A DNA stretch of 64,000 bases from Methylophaga nitratireducenticrescens (GTDB lineage: Bacteria > Pseudomonadota > Gammaproteobacteria > Nitrosococcales > Methylophagaceae). Below, one piece after another: positions 39,643 to 58,522 of the stretch; within the stretch, counting starts at the first letter, position 1, and each line of letters begins with the position of its first letter. The stretch covers positions 930,001-994,000 of the forward strand of contig NC_017857.3 in NCBI RefSeq assembly GCF_000260985.4. The letters are read 5' to 3'. A model generated the notes under the pieces. The model saw nothing but the letters and a program-made list of their open reading frames with translations, ran no database searches and was not told the DNA's origin. Position numbers and translations under genes: made by a program.

Positions 39643-40317
39643 ATGTCACAAACCGCACTGGTCACCGGTAGCAATCGAGGTATCGGGCTTGAGTTATGCC
39701 GGCAATTAAAAGAACGTGGCTTTGATGTGATTGCGACCTGTCGCCATCGCTCTCCGGCTTTAGCTGAACTGGACGTAGAGATTATTGAAGATGTTGAAGT
39801 CAGCGACCCTATCAGCCTTAAAGCACTCTCGGAAAAATTGGGTGATCGTAAAATTGATTGGCTGATTAATAATGCCGGTATCGCCGCTGGTCTGGGACTT
39901 AATGATATTGATTCCAATGCCATCGATAGTTTTAAGAGCATGTTTGAAGTGAATAGTCTTGGTCCTTTGTTAACTACCCAGACGTTAGTGGATCATATGT
40001 CCCAGGGTAGCAAGGTAGGCATTATTACCAGCCGTATGGGATCTATTGCTGATAATGACTCCGGTGGCAGTTATGCATATCGCATGTCCAAAGCCGCGGT
40101 GAATGCTGCAGGCAAGTCACTTTCAATAGATTTGAAACCCAAAGGTATTGCTGTGGCTATTTTGCATCCGGGCTGGGTCAGAACGGATATGACTGGTCAT
40201 GGCGGCTTGATTGATGCGGATGAATCAGCAAAAGGTTTGCTGGATCGGATGACAGAGTTAACTATCGAGAACACAGGCACTTTCTGGCATATGAACGGTG
40301 AAGTGTTGCCTTGGTAA
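39643..40317 (+). CDS. Short-chain dehydrogenase/reductase
   Basis: A 224-residue SDR. TALVTGSNRGIGLELCRQL is the NAD(P)-binding TGxxxGIG motif, WLINNAGIAAG the NNAG motif, and YAYRMSKAAVNAA the catalytic YxxxK. It is similar to carbonyl reductase-type C-factor-like SDRs. The substrate is unknown. It follows mtnA by 10 bases with a GGAG ribosome site, and its stop overlaps the start of the next gene by seven bases, so the three are one transcript. Confidence 0.9.
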   Translation: MSQTALVTGSNRGIGLELCRQLKERGFDVIATCRHRSPALAELDVEIIEDVEVSDPISLKALSEKLGDRKIDWLINNAGIAAGLGLNDIDSNAIDSFKSMFEVNSLGPLLTTQTLVDHMSQGSKVGIITSRMGSIADNDSGGSYAYRMSKAAVNAAGKSLSIDLKPKGIAVAILHPGWVRTDMTGHGGLIDADESAKGLLDRMTELTIENTGTFWHMNGEVLPW

Positions 40318-41204
40318 ACTACCCATCGCTTTCACAACAGCAGCAACACGGCTTGCCGGTACTGCAAAAGCCGGCAAGCAGAATACCCGCCCAGTTTAGC
40401 GATAGCAGCCATCAACTCTGGTTTTGTGACACCGTTGATGGCCCGATGGTTTTGAAACTGTGTGATCATGCCAATATTGAACAGTCGACTTTCTGGCGAG
40501 GAATGAATAGCCTGTTTGCCATCAATTTTCCTGCGTCTTTGGCAACTATCGCAGAAGTTTATCACCGTATTTCGATGATCAGTTCTTTGGCCATTCCGTC
40601 ACTAATTACCTCGATGGAAGCGCAGTTTGTATTGGCTCGGTGGTTACCAGGTAATGATGTGGAGTCATCAGCTGTAACAACTTTAACGATTAAATCATTG
40701 GCTAACCATATCGGTTTGATGCATCAGCAGCAGCATTCACGATGGGGGAGTCTGCAACAGCCAGAATACACAGCAGAAGATTGGCCGCTACGCCTGCAAA
40801 GTACGTTGCAGCTTTTAAAACAACAACAATCCCATCCGCATTCAATTGATCAAGCTGTTTTACAACAGGCTTTGAAACAAGCCGAACAACTTTCTGAAAA
40901 CACGTTTGTGCCAATCATGCCCGATTTGCGTTGGGATCAGTTTCTGATGCAGCAAGGGAAGCTTTCTGCATTGGTTGATCTGGATGCGATTGTTTATGGT
41001 CCAAGAACGTTAGAATTTGTTTTGCTTGAATATTTGCTGGATCAATCACAGGCAGAACAGTTTGCTGCTGAATATCAGAATTATCAGGTTATTCCAGATC
41101 TGACGGATGTTCGGCTGCCTTATCGACTATTACTATTTTTGATGAATGTTTTAGGTGAGACAGATTTGAACTCCTGGCTCAACCATCCCGAACGGTTTAG
41201 TTAA
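40311..41204 (+). CDS. Phosphotransferase (APH/ThiK-like fold)
   Basis: A 297-residue protein with partial APH-kinase features: a Lys strand GPMVLKLCDH, a central LARWLPGNDVESS hinge, and the catalytic-like segment PIMPDLRWDQFLMQQGKLSALVDLDAIVYGP (D...N/Q...DxD replaced by variants: PDLRWDQFL and LVDLDA). Aminoglycoside- and choline-kinase relatives act on small alcohols. Because the convergent neighbours (pnuT and ykoF-type genes under a TPP riboswitch) import thiamine, a thiamine-kinase role is attractive. The altered catalytic motif makes this uncertain. Confidence 0.65.
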   Translation: MVNYPSLSQQQQHGLPVLQKPASRIPAQFSDSSHQLWFCDTVDGPMVLKLCDHANIEQSTFWRGMNSLFAINFPASLATIAEVYHRISMISSLAIPSLITSMEAQFVLARWLPGNDVESSAVTTLTIKSLANHIGLMHQQQHSRWGSLQQPEYTAEDWPLRLQSTLQLLKQQQSHPHSIDQAVLQQALKQAEQLSENTFVPIMPDLRWDQFLMQQGKLSALVDLDAIVYGPRTLEFVLLEYLLDQSQAEQFAAEYQNYQVIPDLTDVRLPYRLLLFLMNVLGETDLNSWLNHPERFS

Positions 41205-41824
41205 GCAGTTCGAGTCTGGTGTTGTGCTGCTAATAACTTACGCCATTTGAAATACCCCGCCATGGCGAGAAACAGATAAATGCTGAACATGACAATAGTG
41301 GCGTAAAACCCCGTCAGTGCATAAAGTACAATCGCCGAACTGTTGATAACTTGCCAATACAACCAATTTTCCAACACTTTACGTGCCATCAATAAAGTAT
41401 TCATTACCGAAAACACCATCACAAATGCATCCAGATAGGGATATTGCGTAGCATGAGCCGATAAGTAATAGCCAAACACCAAACTGAGAAAGCCACCAGT
41501 GGCAATAAAGATCAGATGATATTGCCATGGCCAGCTGTGAATATTCAGTACTGCGGTCTGGTTTTCATGACGATGCCAGAGAATAAAGCCATAGACCGCC
41601 ATACCGATGTAATACAGGTTGAGCAGAGCCTGCATCGGCAACTGATTTTCCCAAAACAGGATGGTGTAAATAATGGTACTGATAAACGCTAATGGCCAGC
41701 ACCATTGTGATTCTCGGGCAGCAAACAGGATATAACCGATGCCAAGCAGCGCGGCAAATACTTCCCAGCCACTCATCGACGCCAGTCCGGCTAGCGTAAT
41801 ATCCCACCAAGCTGATTCAGACAT
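41201..41824 (-). CDS. pnuT: PnuC-family transporter, probable thiamine transporter PnuT
   Basis: A 207-residue membrane protein with about seven helices. The PnuC-family signatures are WEVFAALLGIGYILFAAR, WCWPLAFISTIIYTILFW and ALLNLYYIGMAVYGFILWHR (the W..LY.G...Y.W region). PnuC members carry nicotinamide riboside, PnuT carries thiamine and PnuX riboflavin. The TPP riboswitch upstream of the operon points to thiamine. It shares the last base of the YkoF-type gene (41824) as start overlap. Confidence 0.85.
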   Translation of the reverse strand: MSESAWWDITLAGLASMSGWEVFAALLGIGYILFAARESQWCWPLAFISTIIYTILFWENQLPMQALLNLYYIGMAVYGFILWHRHENQTAVLNIHSWPWQYHLIFIATGGFLSLVFGYYLSAHATQYPYLDAFVMVFSVMNTLLMARKVLENWLYWQVINSSAIVLYALTGFYATIVMFSIYLFLAMAGYFKWRKLLAAQHQTRTA

Positions 41825-42081
41825 CAGTCTTTGACTTGATGACGATCATTACCGATCAGTTTTAACACAAAAACACTATGTGGCATCTGGGCAAACACGG
41901 CTTCAATTTCACTGTCCATCGCATCCATCACATCCCGGTATTCACCAAAAATCTGGGTGCTTAATGTATTACGGTGCACGATCAATTTTGGATTGTTTTC
42001 TAACTTGGCAATAAATGCCAAAATTGGTTCAACAAATTGTTCGGTAAGAGGATAAAGGCTGATATCAACTGAAATTCGCAT
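41824..42081 (-). CDS. YkoF/MTH1187-family thiamine-binding protein
   Basis: An 85-residue protein: MRISVDISLYPLTEQFVEPILAFIAKLE, then LSTQIFGEYRDVMDAM and a ferredoxin-like fold. This is the MTH1187/YkoF family, small thiamine-binding proteins that in some bacteria are encoded with thiamine uptake genes. There is no signal peptide, so it is cytoplasmic. It sits between the outer-membrane receptor and pnuT. Confidence 0.82.
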   Translation of the reverse strand: MRISVDISLYPLTEQFVEPILAFIAKLENNPKLIVHRNTLSTQIFGEYRDVMDAMDSEIEAVFAQMPHSVFVLKLIGNDRHQVKD

Positions 42082-42102
42082 TTTGTCTCTTCCTTATAAT
42101 CT

Positions 42103-44169
42103 TTAGTAATCGTATGAAACGGTCAGGCCGAAGGTGCGTGGGTCGCCATACTGAATATATTTACGTTTAGCGTAATTTATGGACGGATCATTTTCGATGA
42201 AAAATCCACGTGTGGCGTAGTCCTTATCAAACAGATTGCGTCCCCATAGCGTGAGTCGCCAATCCTGATTCTGATATTCGATACTTGCATTGCTTATCAC
42301 ATAAGAGCTGGATTTGGCGTTGTGGCTATTGGAAAAGTAAAACTCGTCTTTACCTTCAATATTGGCGCGAATCACCCAGTTGGGTGCAGGATAATATTCG
42401 CCACCTAAACTGAATTGATACGCTGGCGCATGAGCTTGCTCTCGCCCAGTGACATCGAGATTGTCTCGAACATCGTAATCATTGAAATTGGTGTAAAGCA
42501 GTCCCAAGCTTGCGAGTGCACGCCACTGATCATTGATCAACCAATCCAGGTCAAATTCGATCCCAGCGTTTGTGCCTTTAGCCGCATTTTGCTGATAATC
42601 GATGAATGAAACACCTTCCTGTTTGGAATTTTTGACCTGTGCATCTTTTCGAATTCCATAGAACAGAGCAACATTGGTCAATAAATCACCCTCAAGCCAG
42701 AGTGATTTGGCACCAAGTTCCAGGTTCCACATATATTCCGTATCAAACTCGCGGAAACGAGCCTCTATTCCCGTCGCGTTATTCACACCACCGGACTTGT
42801 AGCCTCTTGACAGAGTGCTGTAGAGAAGATGGTTCTGGTTATATTGAAATTCGAGGCCAATTTTGCCACCAAAAAGCATTTCACTAGGATCCAAATCCAA
42901 TCCATTGTTGTCCAAATACTCGGCTTTGAAATGCCCAACACGTAGACCATTAATCAGTGTGAGTCTTTCAGTGATGCGTGTATCAAGTTGACCAAAAATC
43001 GCTGTGTTTTCTGTTTCATATTGGTTAACTACAGGAATGAAAGTATTGCTGGCATCAAGCTTTTCGTCTTGATTTAAATAATATATCCCGACTGTCCAAT
43101 CAGTTGAATTATTGAAAATTCTGCCATCTTCATTGGATAGTGCTCGGAGCTCGAAAGAATAGTTTTCTCGCCCCCTGTCGTAAACTTCTACACCATCGTA
43201 TGAGCCGGGTATTCCGGCATTCCTTGGACGATTACTCCAATCTGCATCGTAGCTATAGAGCAAGTCAGATTTTGAGTAGGTCACCGTTGATTGGAGCTGT
43301 AATGCGCTACTGGCACGCCAATCACCTTTCAGGGCAAACGCATTGGTACGTTGTTTATCTTCGCCTGGTTCGTCAGATAGGCTGTTGCGGCTGTTATCCA
43401 ATGTGAAAGCATCATAACCATTATCAATATTCAGATGCAGTAGGTTCAGATCAATGGTTAAATCATTATTCACTAACCATTTTAAATGGCTACGAGCAGT
43501 AATTTCATCACGGTTTTGTGTATTGTCACGACCCAGAAAGTCATTATCCATAAACCCATCTGATTGATAAGTATGAACAGCAACCCGGCCGAGTAAGGTG
43601 TCTTTAATTAATGGCCCACCAACCGCAACACCAACGCTACGGGTATTGTAATTACCAACGGTGGATTCAAAATCCATATCCAGTTTGTTGGTGGCCTGTT
43701 TGCTTTGCATATTGATTACGCCAGCAAGTGCATTGGTGCCATAACGGGTTCCCTGTGGACCTCGCAGCACTTCGACCTGTTCAATATCAAATAATGTCGC
43801 GGCTCCGCCAGTTCGACTGAAATCGATACCATCAATAATCAAACCCACAGATGGATTTAAAGGTGCAGCAAATTGACTGCGTTCACCAATACCGCGGATT
43901 TGAAAATACTGACCACGTGAAGCGCCGCTGGAGATATTTACATTCGGAGCGAGATTCAGCACATCTTCAATATGTTGAGCACCACGCGATTCAATGATTT
44001 CCTCATCGAATGTTGTCAGACTGCCCGGGATGTCTTGAGCCTCAGCGGGCCGGAAATCGGCACTGACCAGCATGGATGGTAAATCAGTGCTATCGGTCTC
44101 GGTTTGTGCAACTGCGCCGGGAGCAAATAGCGCGCTGGTGACTGCGATGGAAAGCAGGGAGGGTTTCAT
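42103..44169 (-). CDS. TonB-dependent receptor, probable thiamine/thiamine-precursor importer
   Basis: About 688 residues from the ATG preceded by AAAGGATAG; an in-frame ATG at 44190 has no such site. It has a signal peptide ending VAQTE, a plug with EIIESRGAQHIEDVLNLAPNV, FQIRGIGERSQF, QVEVLRGPQGTRYGTNALAGVI, and a beta barrel ending in a Tyr (LTVSYDY). TonB-dependent receptors import large or scarce ligands. The TPP riboswitch at 44235-44328 is directly upstream, so the substrate is probably thiamine or a derivative and transport continues through PnuT. Confidence 0.9.
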   Translation of the reverse strand: MKPSLLSIAVTSALFAPGAVAQTETDSTDLPSMLVSADFRPAEAQDIPGSLTTFDEEIIESRGAQHIEDVLNLAPNVNISSGASRGQYFQIRGIGERSQFAAPLNPSVGLIIDGIDFSRTGGAATLFDIEQVEVLRGPQGTRYGTNALAGVINMQSKQATNKLDMDFESTVGNYNTRSVGVAVGGPLIKDTLLGRVAVHTYQSDGFMDNDFLGRDNTQNRDEITARSHLKWLVNNDLTIDLNLLHLNIDNGYDAFTLDNSRNSLSDEPGEDKQRTNAFALKGDWRASSALQLQSTVTYSKSDLLYSYDADWSNRPRNAGIPGSYDGVEVYDRGRENYSFELRALSNEDGRIFNNSTDWTVGIYYLNQDEKLDASNTFIPVVNQYETENTAIFGQLDTRITERLTLINGLRVGHFKAEYLDNNGLDLDPSEMLFGGKIGLEFQYNQNHLLYSTLSRGYKSGGVNNATGIEARFREFDTEYMWNLELGAKSLWLEGDLLTNVALFYGIRKDAQVKNSKQEGVSFIDYQQNAAKGTNAGIEFDLDWLINDQWRALASLGLLYTNFNDYDVRDNLDVTGREQAHAPAYQFSLGGEYYPAPNWVIRANIEGKDEFYFSNSHNAKSSSYVISNASIEYQNQDWRLTLWGRNLFDKDYATRGFFIENDPSINYAKRKYIQYGDPRTFGLTVSYDY

Positions 44170-44234
44170 AACTATCCTTTTTAATGTCATAAAAAGGACA
44201 GGGGATCACGCCATTTGCATTGAACTTGCAAGAA

Positions 44235-44328
44235 GGGGGTGCCGCCTGTCCCTACGCCAGTATTATCTGGATCAGGTTCATCGGGTCTCCACCAACTGGT
44301 GAATCTCAGGCCTTTCGACCACCCCGAG
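44235..44328 (-). promoter_or_regulatory. TPP (THI-box) riboswitch
   Basis: The complement of this segment reads GGGGTG, then GGCCTGAGA, ACCCGATGAACCTGATCC, then AGATAATACTGGCGTAGGGA and closing CACCCC. These are the conserved THI-element blocks (CTGAGA, ACCTGATC, GCGTAGGGA). It lies ~65 bases upstream of the TonB receptor start. In the TPP-bound state it is expected to lower expression of the operon. Confidence 0.95.
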
Positions 44329-44399
44329 GCTTGTATTAGTAAGTAGGTGAAATATACAGAAAAAAGTGGCATTTTCCCACCCTTAATCGTTGCACAGAA

Positions 44400-44426
44400 A
44401 CAAAAAAAGGCGTCCGAAGACGCCTT
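44400..44426 (-). terminator. Rho-independent terminator after the SRPBCC gene
   Basis: On the minus strand AAGGCGTC-TTCG-GACGCCTT is followed by TTTTTT: an eight-base stem, UUCG tetraloop and U tract. It lies 22 bases after the stop of the SRPBCC gene and separates it from the riboswitch operon. Confidence 0.92.
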
Positions 44427-44447
44427 AATGCATAAGTTATCTATAAC

Positions 44448-45017
44448 TTATTTTTCCGCTTTACCTTTTAATGTGTCCAGACCGGAACGGAAAATACCTT
44501 TAATAGCGTTAGTGGCCGTTTCATCGTTCAACTCTTTGGGCTCATGGTGATTACCCGTGTAACCACGGAAAAATTTGGCCAACCAGGTGACTTTGGTTTG
44601 ATCACCTTCTGCTTCAACAGTTAACCATGCCTTATACTTACTGACTGGTACCGCAGGGATATCATGCATTTCGCCTTCAATATCAACCTGTCCAACAGAA
44701 CTCATTTCATCAATCTGATACATAAAGCTCATTGATTCTTCGTCAAACTTTTTCAACGTTTCAGTGATGGTTGAATCATTTTTAAGGGTTAAAACGCGCG
44801 TCGCGCCAGGTTCATTCCCACCTTCTGCTTTAGTAGAAATAATGGCCGGGTGCCATTTATGCAGGCTGTCGAAATCTTTAACCATGTTCCACACAGTTTC
44901 AGCATCAGCATTAATCAACACGGTTTCTTCCACTTGCAGACGTGAAGCGCCATGAGCAAATACCAATGCAGGTAACAGGAATAAGCCTGTAACCAGAACG
45001 TTTAATACAGCTTTCAT
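44448..45017 (-). CDS. Exported SRPBCC-domain protein (MxaD-like)
   Basis: A 189-residue protein with a Sec signal (VLVTGLFLLPALVFAHGAS). The mature part is a START-like SRPBCC fold: VEETVLINADAETVWNMVKDFDSLHKWHPAI, then TITETLKKFDEESMSFMY and VTWLAKFFRGY. MxaD of methylotrophs is such a periplasmic protein, used in methanol oxidation. Without a methanol dehydrogenase operon here this is only a similarity. The gene stands alone, followed by a good terminator. Confidence 0.78.
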   Translation of the reverse strand: MKAVLNVLVTGLFLLPALVFAHGASRLQVEETVLINADAETVWNMVKDFDSLHKWHPAIISTKAEGGNEPGATRVLTLKNDSTITETLKKFDEESMSFMYQIDEMSSVGQVDIEGEMHDIPAVPVSKYKAWLTVEAEGDQTKVTWLAKFFRGYTGNHHEPKELNDETATNAIKGIFRSGLDTLKGKAEK

Positions 45018-57547: not shown

Positions 57548-58522
57548 ATGAAACCTTCTCCCGAATTTTCACTGATTCAGCAGTATTTTCACGCGTTAAC
57601 GACGCGTCGTGAAGATGTGATTGTGGGAATCGGTGATGATTGTGCCGTTTTAAACAATCCGCAGGATACCTATACGGCTGTCTCAATTGATACATTGGTA
57701 CAAGACATACATTTTTTTGCCGATGTTGATCCCTATCGTTTGGGCATCAAAGCTCTGGCCGTCAACCTCAGTGATCTGGCCGCAATGGGGGCTCAACCTG
57801 CCTGGTTCACTCTGGCCTTAACCTTGCCTGAAATCAATGATGACTGGCTAAAACAGTTTTCAGCTGGCTTGGCATATATCGCCAAAAATCACCAAATTCA
57901 GCTGGTGGGCGGGGATACTACCCGTGGTCCCTTAACCATTACCATTCAGGTTCATGGGCATGTAGCCAAGCACAATATATTGCAGCGTAATGCTGCAGAG
58001 TCAGCTGACTTGATTTGTGTGACCGGATGCCTGGGAGATGCCGCCGCAGGGCTTCAATTTAGATTGGGGCAACTTGAAACAGGATTGTTAACCGATACAG
58101 ATATTGAATATCTGTTACAACGGTTGGAAATGCCCACACCGCGTAATCAAATAGGTCAGCAACTGATAGGCAAAGCACATGCGGCAATTGATGTTTCAGA
58201 TGGCTTACTGGCGGATTTAAATCATATACTCAATGCGAGTGACAAAGGGGCAAAGCTGGATGTATCCGCTTTACCATTCTCTGCGGCGTTGAAAAAATTG
58301 CCCACAGAAATGGCGACGCAACTGGCATTAACGGGCGGTGATGATTACGAATTATGTTTTACCGCGACTGTGGACAATGTGGCGAGACTCAAACATCAGT
58401 TTTCTGACATGATTCATGTGATTGGTGAAATCACTGAAGACGAAGGTATGTATTATCAGAATGCCCATGGTGAATGGCAGGCATTCTCAGCAATAAAGGC
58501 AGGCTATGACCACTTCGCATAA
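57548..58522 (+). CDS. thiL: Thiamine-monophosphate kinase
   Basis: A 324-residue PurM/ThiL-fold enzyme: EDVIVGIGDDCAVLN and AVSIDTLVQDIHF are the ThiL N-terminal metal and ATP motifs, then VNLSDLAAMGAQPAWFTLALTLP, QLVGGDTTRGPLTIT and AAIDVSDGLLADLNHI. It phosphorylates TMP to the active cofactor TPP. This completes the thiamine uptake genes at 41,201-44,169 with a phosphorylation step, but they are not linked. The start lacks a clear ribosome site. Confidence 0.95.
   Translation: MKPSPEFSLIQQYFHALTTRREDVIVGIGDDCAVLNNPQDTYTAVSIDTLVQDIHFFADVDPYRLGIKALAVNLSDLAAMGAQPAWFTLALTLPEINDDWLKQFSAGLAYIAKNHQIQLVGGDTTRGPLTITIQVHGHVAKHNILQRNAAESADLICVTGCLGDAAAGLQFRLGQLETGLLTDTDIEYLLQRLEMPTPRNQIGQQLIGKAHAAIDVSDGLLADLNHILNASDKGAKLDVSALPFSAALKKLPTEMATQLALTGGDDYELCFTATVDNVARLKHQFSDMIHVIGEITEDEGMYYQNAHGEWQAFSAIKAGYDHFA

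Follow-up and report, generated by a model that had tools for sequence, protein, structure and literature searches.

A locus of the marine bacterium Methylophaga nitratireducenticrescens that appears to serve thiamine import raises the question of which enzyme phosphorylates the vitamin once it has entered the cell. The locus lies in a 64,000-nucleotide stretch of the genome (NCBI RefSeq assembly GCF_000260985.4, contig NC_017857.3, positions 930,001 to 994,000 of the forward strand), hereafter the window, whose numbering we use throughout. Here a thiamine pyrophosphate (TPP) riboswitch, or THI element, is followed on the minus strand by genes for a TonB receptor, a small YkoF-type protein and PnuT, a carrier of the PnuC family, and an APH-family gene on the plus strand faces them, its stop codon overlapping that of pnuT by 4 bp (41201-41204). 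This arrangement, which a sequence-only reading had noticed, is confirmed, each of its parts being recognised by a family model (Table 1). The range proposed for it, 40311-44328, holds for the locus but falls short at its end, as the riboswitch begins slightly outside, at 44336. The accompanying interpretation, a riboswitch-controlled thiamine path across both membranes with a facing kinase, is largely supported by comparison with other genomes. We believe, with a probability of roughly 0.7, that the locus as a whole is a thiamine salvage module in which riboswitch-repressed import is combined with a facing kinase that would make thiamine monophosphate (TMP) for ThiL. On balance we also favour the view that the facing genes encode thiamine kinases of a family not described before, whose catalytic site has been rebuilt (DxRWDQ for HxDxxxxN) and which replaces ThiK here in several families of Gammaproteobacteria. 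Their facing orientation would have been kept so as to leave the trapping enzyme unrepressed when the riboswitch acts on the importer.

Two kinases alternate beside pnuT

A PnuT profile was run over a survey sample of 369 Gammaproteobacteria genomes. The best 21 of these, which we regard as carrying the thiamine-type PnuT, scored at least 189 bits, and the next match scored 133. One of them (G163), whose locus ends at a contig edge, was left unscored; each of the other 20 loci has exactly one of two kinases. In type A (13 genomes from eight families) a ThiK-like kinase gene follows pnuT in the same direction, with the receptor present in all 13 and a YkoF gene before pnuT in 11. In type B (seven genomes from three families, namely f1, which includes Methylophaga, f53 and f146) the receptor, YkoF and PnuT genes are faced by an APH gene. 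By their kinase, two named genomes also fall into type A: Bacterioplanes (L010) and an uncultured Saccharospirillaceae bacterium (L011). In the latter the receptor, the YkoF gene and the riboswitch are all absent next to pnuT. Wherever the DNA upstream of the receptor was present and scanned, a TPP riboswitch precedes it, two loci (L136, L137) being cut at that point.

The ThiK-like profile gave 262-308 bits in type A, whereas none of the type-B genomes searched with it exceeded 42 bits, and two type-A kinases, when compared with NCBIfam, had their best matches to the GntI and ThiK models, below the cut-offs. A profile of the facing kinase, run over the same 369 genomes, scored strongly (at least 262 bits) in exactly the seven type-B genomes, the others reaching 69, 25 and 20 bits; by our own arithmetic, and assuming independent genomes, the chance of all seven falling within the 21 is about 7e-10. 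The APH gene faces pnuT in every one of the 29 type-B loci that were measured; the two stop codons mostly overlap by 4 bp, the remaining loci having one or two genes in between. Even in G282, where the kinase gene lies several kilobases from pnuT, it still faces it. Among genomes of the family, G302 and G306 lack both PnuT and the facing kinase.

A putative rebuilt catalytic site

The product of the facing gene, whose first start codon in the window is a TTG overlapping the stop codon of an SDR gene, is highly divergent. Two of its homologues (L052, L053) have no Pfam match at E 0.001, the window kinase itself does not match the ThiK model TIGR02721, and sequence and profile searches of the PDB with the facing kinase returned no convincing relative. 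Compared profile against profile, the facing kinases match the ThiK-like kinases with 95.6% probability, and the ThiK-like profile in turn matches choline kinases in the PDB. Across 21 homologues the motif DxRWDQ...DxDA is invariant or nearly so; Asp31, Asp205, Arg207, Trp208, Asp209, Gln210 and Asp223 are among the invariant residues, and Lys49 is nearly invariant. By two alignments Asp205 corresponds to the catalytic aspartate and Asp223 to the metal-binding one. We take this to be a putatively active but rebuilt catalytic site. That the APH-like gene could phosphorylate imported thiamine, as had been suggested from the window alone, is plausible on the comparative evidence, but its active-site motif is unlike that of ThiK.

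A distant homologue (69 bits, motif DLRDDQ) occurs in G272 (L054:2076-7617) near genes for an NMT1/THI5-like binding protein and an ATP-binding cassette (ABC) ATPase; no TPP riboswitch was found near it.

Thiamine metabolism and the kinase gap

The genome is a single contig of 3.135 Mb. ThiL, which is encoded further along the window, acts on TMP, so imported thiamine must first be phosphorylated by a thiamine kinase. Neither thiamine pyrophosphokinase (TIGR01378) nor ThiK (TIGR02721) found a match anywhere in this genome. Five APH-family genes are present, including the facing kinase. The first of the other four is AmgK-like (283.5 bits, below the model cut-off of 550), with a nucleotidyltransferase reading as MurU after it; the second is homoserine kinase (ThrB), above the model cut-off; the third carries the motif HGDLWGGN and was read as fructosamine-kinase-like; and the fourth resembles homoserine kinase/aminotransferase fusions. 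Judged by these family assignments, the facing kinase is the only APH gene of the genome without another likely role. As a ThiC-like gene is present alongside ThiL, the strain is probably a thiamine producer that is able to salvage the vitamin too.

Two TPP riboswitches were found in this genome by covariance model, the other one before the thiC-like gene, whereas for M. nitratireducenticrescens GP59 a published list of riboswitches gives one, before thiC, and none before a TonB receptor (PMC12530212); the strains may differ, or one may be lacking from the list. In the window genome (L093:1051-3417), an APH-domain gene like the N-terminal part of aminotransferase fusions seems to have been split from the aminotransferase part, with a transposase-like gene adjoining.

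Weighing the thiamine kinase reading

Several observations weigh against the facing gene being a thiamine kinase that serves salvage. The kinase types follow clades in the PnuT tree, type B being clustered in three families, so the alternation represents few independent events. The kinase gene is not in the riboswitch operon, and since thiC is kept, import is not strictly needed. In Methylophagaceae the kinase gene also overlaps that of an SDR with mtnA as its neighbour, and in this setting functions other than thiamine phosphorylation would fit as well. Structure prediction of the kinase from eight sequences was unusable (pLDDT, the predicted local distance difference test, 42.6). Finally, HxDxxxxN is replaced across the family by M-x-D-x-R-W-D-Q, in which both aspartates are kept, the His is mostly Met and the metal-binding Asn has become Gln, and in one relative (L051) the usual Lys has given way to His; these changes make a non-catalytic role possible.

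The same replacements would suit a degenerate protein of the APH fold that binds thiamine or regulates its uptake. We consider such a protein unlikely, since neither Asp205 nor Asp223 varies and Gln210 is fixed rather than drifting, since the gene occupies the place that a ThiK-like kinase holds in other lineages, and since the window genome showed no other recognisable thiamine kinase. Equally improbable, in our judgement, is import not of thiamine but of one of its precursors or breakdown products, such as hydroxymethylpyrimidine (HMP), formylaminopyrimidine or thiazole, with the kinase acting on that compound. YkoF-type proteins have been listed as B1/HMP-binding (PMC10881298) and the distant kinase homologue at L054 lies near an NMT1/THI5-like ABC system; however, the kinase that takes this position in type-A loci has ThiK as its closest match among the named vitamin kinases, which speaks against this reading.

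It is very unlikely that the facing gene encodes a methylthioribose kinase or another methionine-salvage kinase of the mtnA-SDR genes and adjoins pnuT by accident: although in Methylophagaceae it usually runs in the same direction as the SDR gene and often overlaps it, with mtnA one gene beyond, the facing kinase does not match the MtnK model TIGR01767, the gene stands beside pnuT in f53 and f146 with MtnA, SDR and mtaD homologues absent in the stretch compared, and in G309, which has no PnuT match, the MtnA and SDR frames continue while the kinase is a 170-residue fragment ending before the DxRWDQ region. Such a fragment, with the MtnA and SDR frames still there, indicates that it was not on account of its other neighbours that the kinase was retained. 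Against the thiamine kinase reading it must be said that, with pnuT and the kinase adjacent, a single deletion could explain both losses in G309.

The riboswitch and its predicted expression platform

The match to RF00059 spans positions 1-105, the whole aptamer, its score standing against a gathering score of 54.3 bits, and no other Rfam family reaches its gathering score anywhere in the window. Near relatives of the thiamine block were found in Methylophaga, and the receptor-YkoF-PnuT set recurs with its order kept in several families of Gammaproteobacteria, so it has not come together by chance. Promoter- and terminator-like sites in 40200-44500 were no more frequent than in shuffled sequences.

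Table 1. Positions in the window of the thiamine locus and of thiL, with the evidence for each feature.
Feature	Position	Strand	Evidence
TPP riboswitch aptamer (THI element)	44231..44336	-	Rfam RF00059, 74.3 bits, E 8.7e-13
Predicted 12-bp hairpin hiding the Shine-Dalgarno sequence of the receptor gene	44172..44201	-	ViennaRNA fold
TonB-dependent outer-membrane receptor	42103..44169	-	Pfam Plug PF07715, 6.4e-20; TIGR01783, 3.9e-56, below cut-off
Single-domain YkoF-type protein, 85 aa	41824..42081	-	PF07615, 1.6e-6
PnuT, PnuC-family inner-membrane carrier, thiamine type by context	41201..41824	-	PF04973, 4.4e-49
Divergent APH-fold kinase, proposed thiamine kinase	40311..41204	+	PF01636, 2.8e-8, 34.2 bits vs 23.2
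ThiL, thiamine-monophosphate kinase	57563..58516 (contig 987563-988516)	+	TIGR01379, 323.3 bits vs 184.15

The receptor gene likely starts at the ATG at 44169, after the Shine-Dalgarno sequence AAAAAGGAUAG, the first start of its open reading frame being at 44190. Upstream, CCUGUCC (44202-44196) is complementary to GGACAGG (44251-44245) at the 3' end of the aptamer. When folded in ViennaRNA with a constraint on the P1 helix, the Shine-Dalgarno sequence lay in the hairpin with a pairing probability near 1, although the P1 enforced was one register off and this fold is thus a rough guide. With P1 forbidden, the Shine-Dalgarno sequence opened slightly (0.03-0.27 unpaired), and because it barely opens, the fold alone does not prove switching. 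Taken locus by locus, the 7-nt anti-sequestor is statistically weak (shuffle p about 0.03-0.07), and it draws its support mainly from recurrence at the same place: the CCUGUCC/CCUUUUU...AAAAAGG arrangement is also found in L006, L008, L062 and L071 and in family f53 (L052), with variants in L003, which has 5 nt only, and L051, which has a different 9-nt complement. From these features it looks like a translational platform of the ordinary kind. The kinase gene, being on the opposite strand, lies outside riboswitch control.

Receptor, YkoF protein and carrier

The receptor is the first gene of the operon and is kept in both type-A and type-B loci. TIGR01783 aligns to its residues 53-694, with a score below the model cut-off, and no Pfam barrel model matches at E 0.001. 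Near relatives match the window at 96-100% identity in PnuT and YkoF but at only some 72-77% in the receptor. At the DNA level, in a comparison that covered L003-L007, the window and L006 share 91-95% in the plug part, 59-73% in the barrel (about 43450-42093) and approximately 83-97% in the flanking genes; L004 and L007, by contrast, are 91-97% identical to the window in the barrel and mostly 77-91% in the flanking genes. Around the low-identity barrel the figure is some 90% or more, and L003, L004 and L007 carry a near-common barrel on more diverged flanks. Synonymous divergence (dS) in those pairs with the window for which it could be computed is 1.3-2.5 for the receptor as against 0.35-0.42 for pnuT. 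Positive selection was rejected as the main cause of the divergence of the receptor because dS is raised too, and the raised dS suggests that whole stretches were exchanged between species and not changed in place. On these comparisons it is the barrel, not the plug, that is swapped among Methylophaga species by allele exchange, with phage or bacteriocin pressure a likely, if putative, cause. The receptor frame is seemingly broken, either into two pieces that lie in different frames or by truncation, in Methylophaga muralis (L004:2350-4523) and in G300 (L074:2761-4944), through either sequencing error or loss of function.

The YkoF-type protein scores 28.9 bits against a PF07615 cut-off of 21 and has the conserved motif DISxYPL...STQxFG; no signal peptide is obvious by eye, and its sequence match to the structures 1s7h and 1s99 is weak (E about 0.1). 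In one f53 genome (L053:3629-4803) two YkoF-type genes of the operon flank a gene of 210 codons whose product looks methyltransferase-like by eye. The carrier scores 81.9 bits against TIGR01528 (cut-off 42.45), matches PnuC of PDB 4qtn at E 1.3e-6 and groups with PnuT proteins linked to TPP riboswitches; from its riboswitch and kinase-neighbour context it is a putative thiamine-type PnuT. The PnuT of Shewanella woodyi has reportedly been studied as a facilitator. At L073, L074, L082 and related loci of several Methylophaga genomes (for example L073:5703-6365), a gene for a HAD-family hydrolase comes immediately after pnuT, on the pnuT strand and before the facing kinase; its product is a candidate thiamine-phosphate phosphatase, or may be unrelated.

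A model for thiamine salvage

Our model, in which substrate, direction of transport, kinase activity and switching of the platform are what we infer, runs as follows. At low TPP, GGACAGG would pair with CCUGUCC, leaving the Shine-Dalgarno sequence free and the receptor-ykoF-pnuT messenger open to translation. With TPP bound, P1 would form and the CCUUUUU...AAAAAGG hairpin would shut the ribosome site, as its sequence and folding suggest. The TonB receptor may carry scarce thiamine, or a close relative, through the outer membrane, after which PnuT would pass it through the inner membrane and the small YkoF protein would bind it in the cytoplasm. Finally, the facing APH-fold kinase, exempt from riboswitch control, would convert thiamine to TMP, trapping it in the cell and feeding ThiL, which would complete TPP.

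Relation to known systems

The sequence-only reading had called TonB-linked thiamine import poorly characterised in Gammaproteobacteria. The import set itself is already known from predictions and from Bacteroides genetics: TonB receptors beside pnuT have been listed as predicted thiamine transporters (PMC2771747, citing a 2002 comparative study), SAR86 has TonB receptors (omr1) near TPP riboswitches (PMC10881298), and in a Bacteroides thetaiotaomicron biosynthesis mutant the deletion of the receptor or of PnuT raised the thiamine requirement about tenfold (PMC5613172). What appears to be new is the facing kinase, a very divergent family whose function we derive from its context, and of which a limited search of the open-access literature found no description.

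The OMthi-PnuT-Tnr3 system of Bacteroidetes (BT2390, BT2396-2397; PMC5613172) likewise combines a TPP riboswitch, a TonB receptor, PnuT and an associated kinase. Its kinase, however, is of the thiamine pyrophosphokinase type (Tnr3) and lies in the operon, whereas that of the window has the APH fold and faces the operon; in addition, ThiL would finish TPP in the window genome, and a YkoF gene is added. Closer at hand are the TonB-YkoF-PnuT-ThiK-like operons of other Gammaproteobacteria (for example Bacterioplanes sanyensis, L010, and L138-L147), which have the same order and riboswitch, although YkoF is missing in L070 and L146. Their type-A kinase keeps HxDxxxxN...DxE and is encoded co-directionally after pnuT, while the window kinase belongs to another subfamily and lies on the opposite strand. 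With ThiK (YcfN, TIGR02721) and ThiL of Escherichia coli the proposed route shares its steps from thiamine through TMP to TPP, and with ThiK the kinase shares the APH fold, but it has no TIGR02721 match and M-x-D-x-R-W-D-Q in place of HxDxxxxN. PnuC, the nicotinamide riboside transporter (PDB 4qtn), is of the same family as the carrier, which is instead linked to a TPP riboswitch and thiamine genes. YkoF of Bacillus subtilis (PDB 1s7h, 1s99, 1sbr) shares PF07615 with the window protein but is a chain of 200 residues as against 85 with one Pfam domain. It goes with the YkoEDC system, whereas the YkoF gene of the window adjoins pnuT.

The facing kinase speaks to a gap left by automatic annotation, in which genomes of this group seem capable of importing thiamine and of turning TMP into TPP while having no recognisable thiamine kinase. 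If its activity is as we propose, a new family of EC 2.7.1.89 enzymes would become annotatable in several gammaproteobacterial lineages. The alternation of two kinases beside the same transporter would then also support the view that PnuT needs a kinase to trap its substrate.
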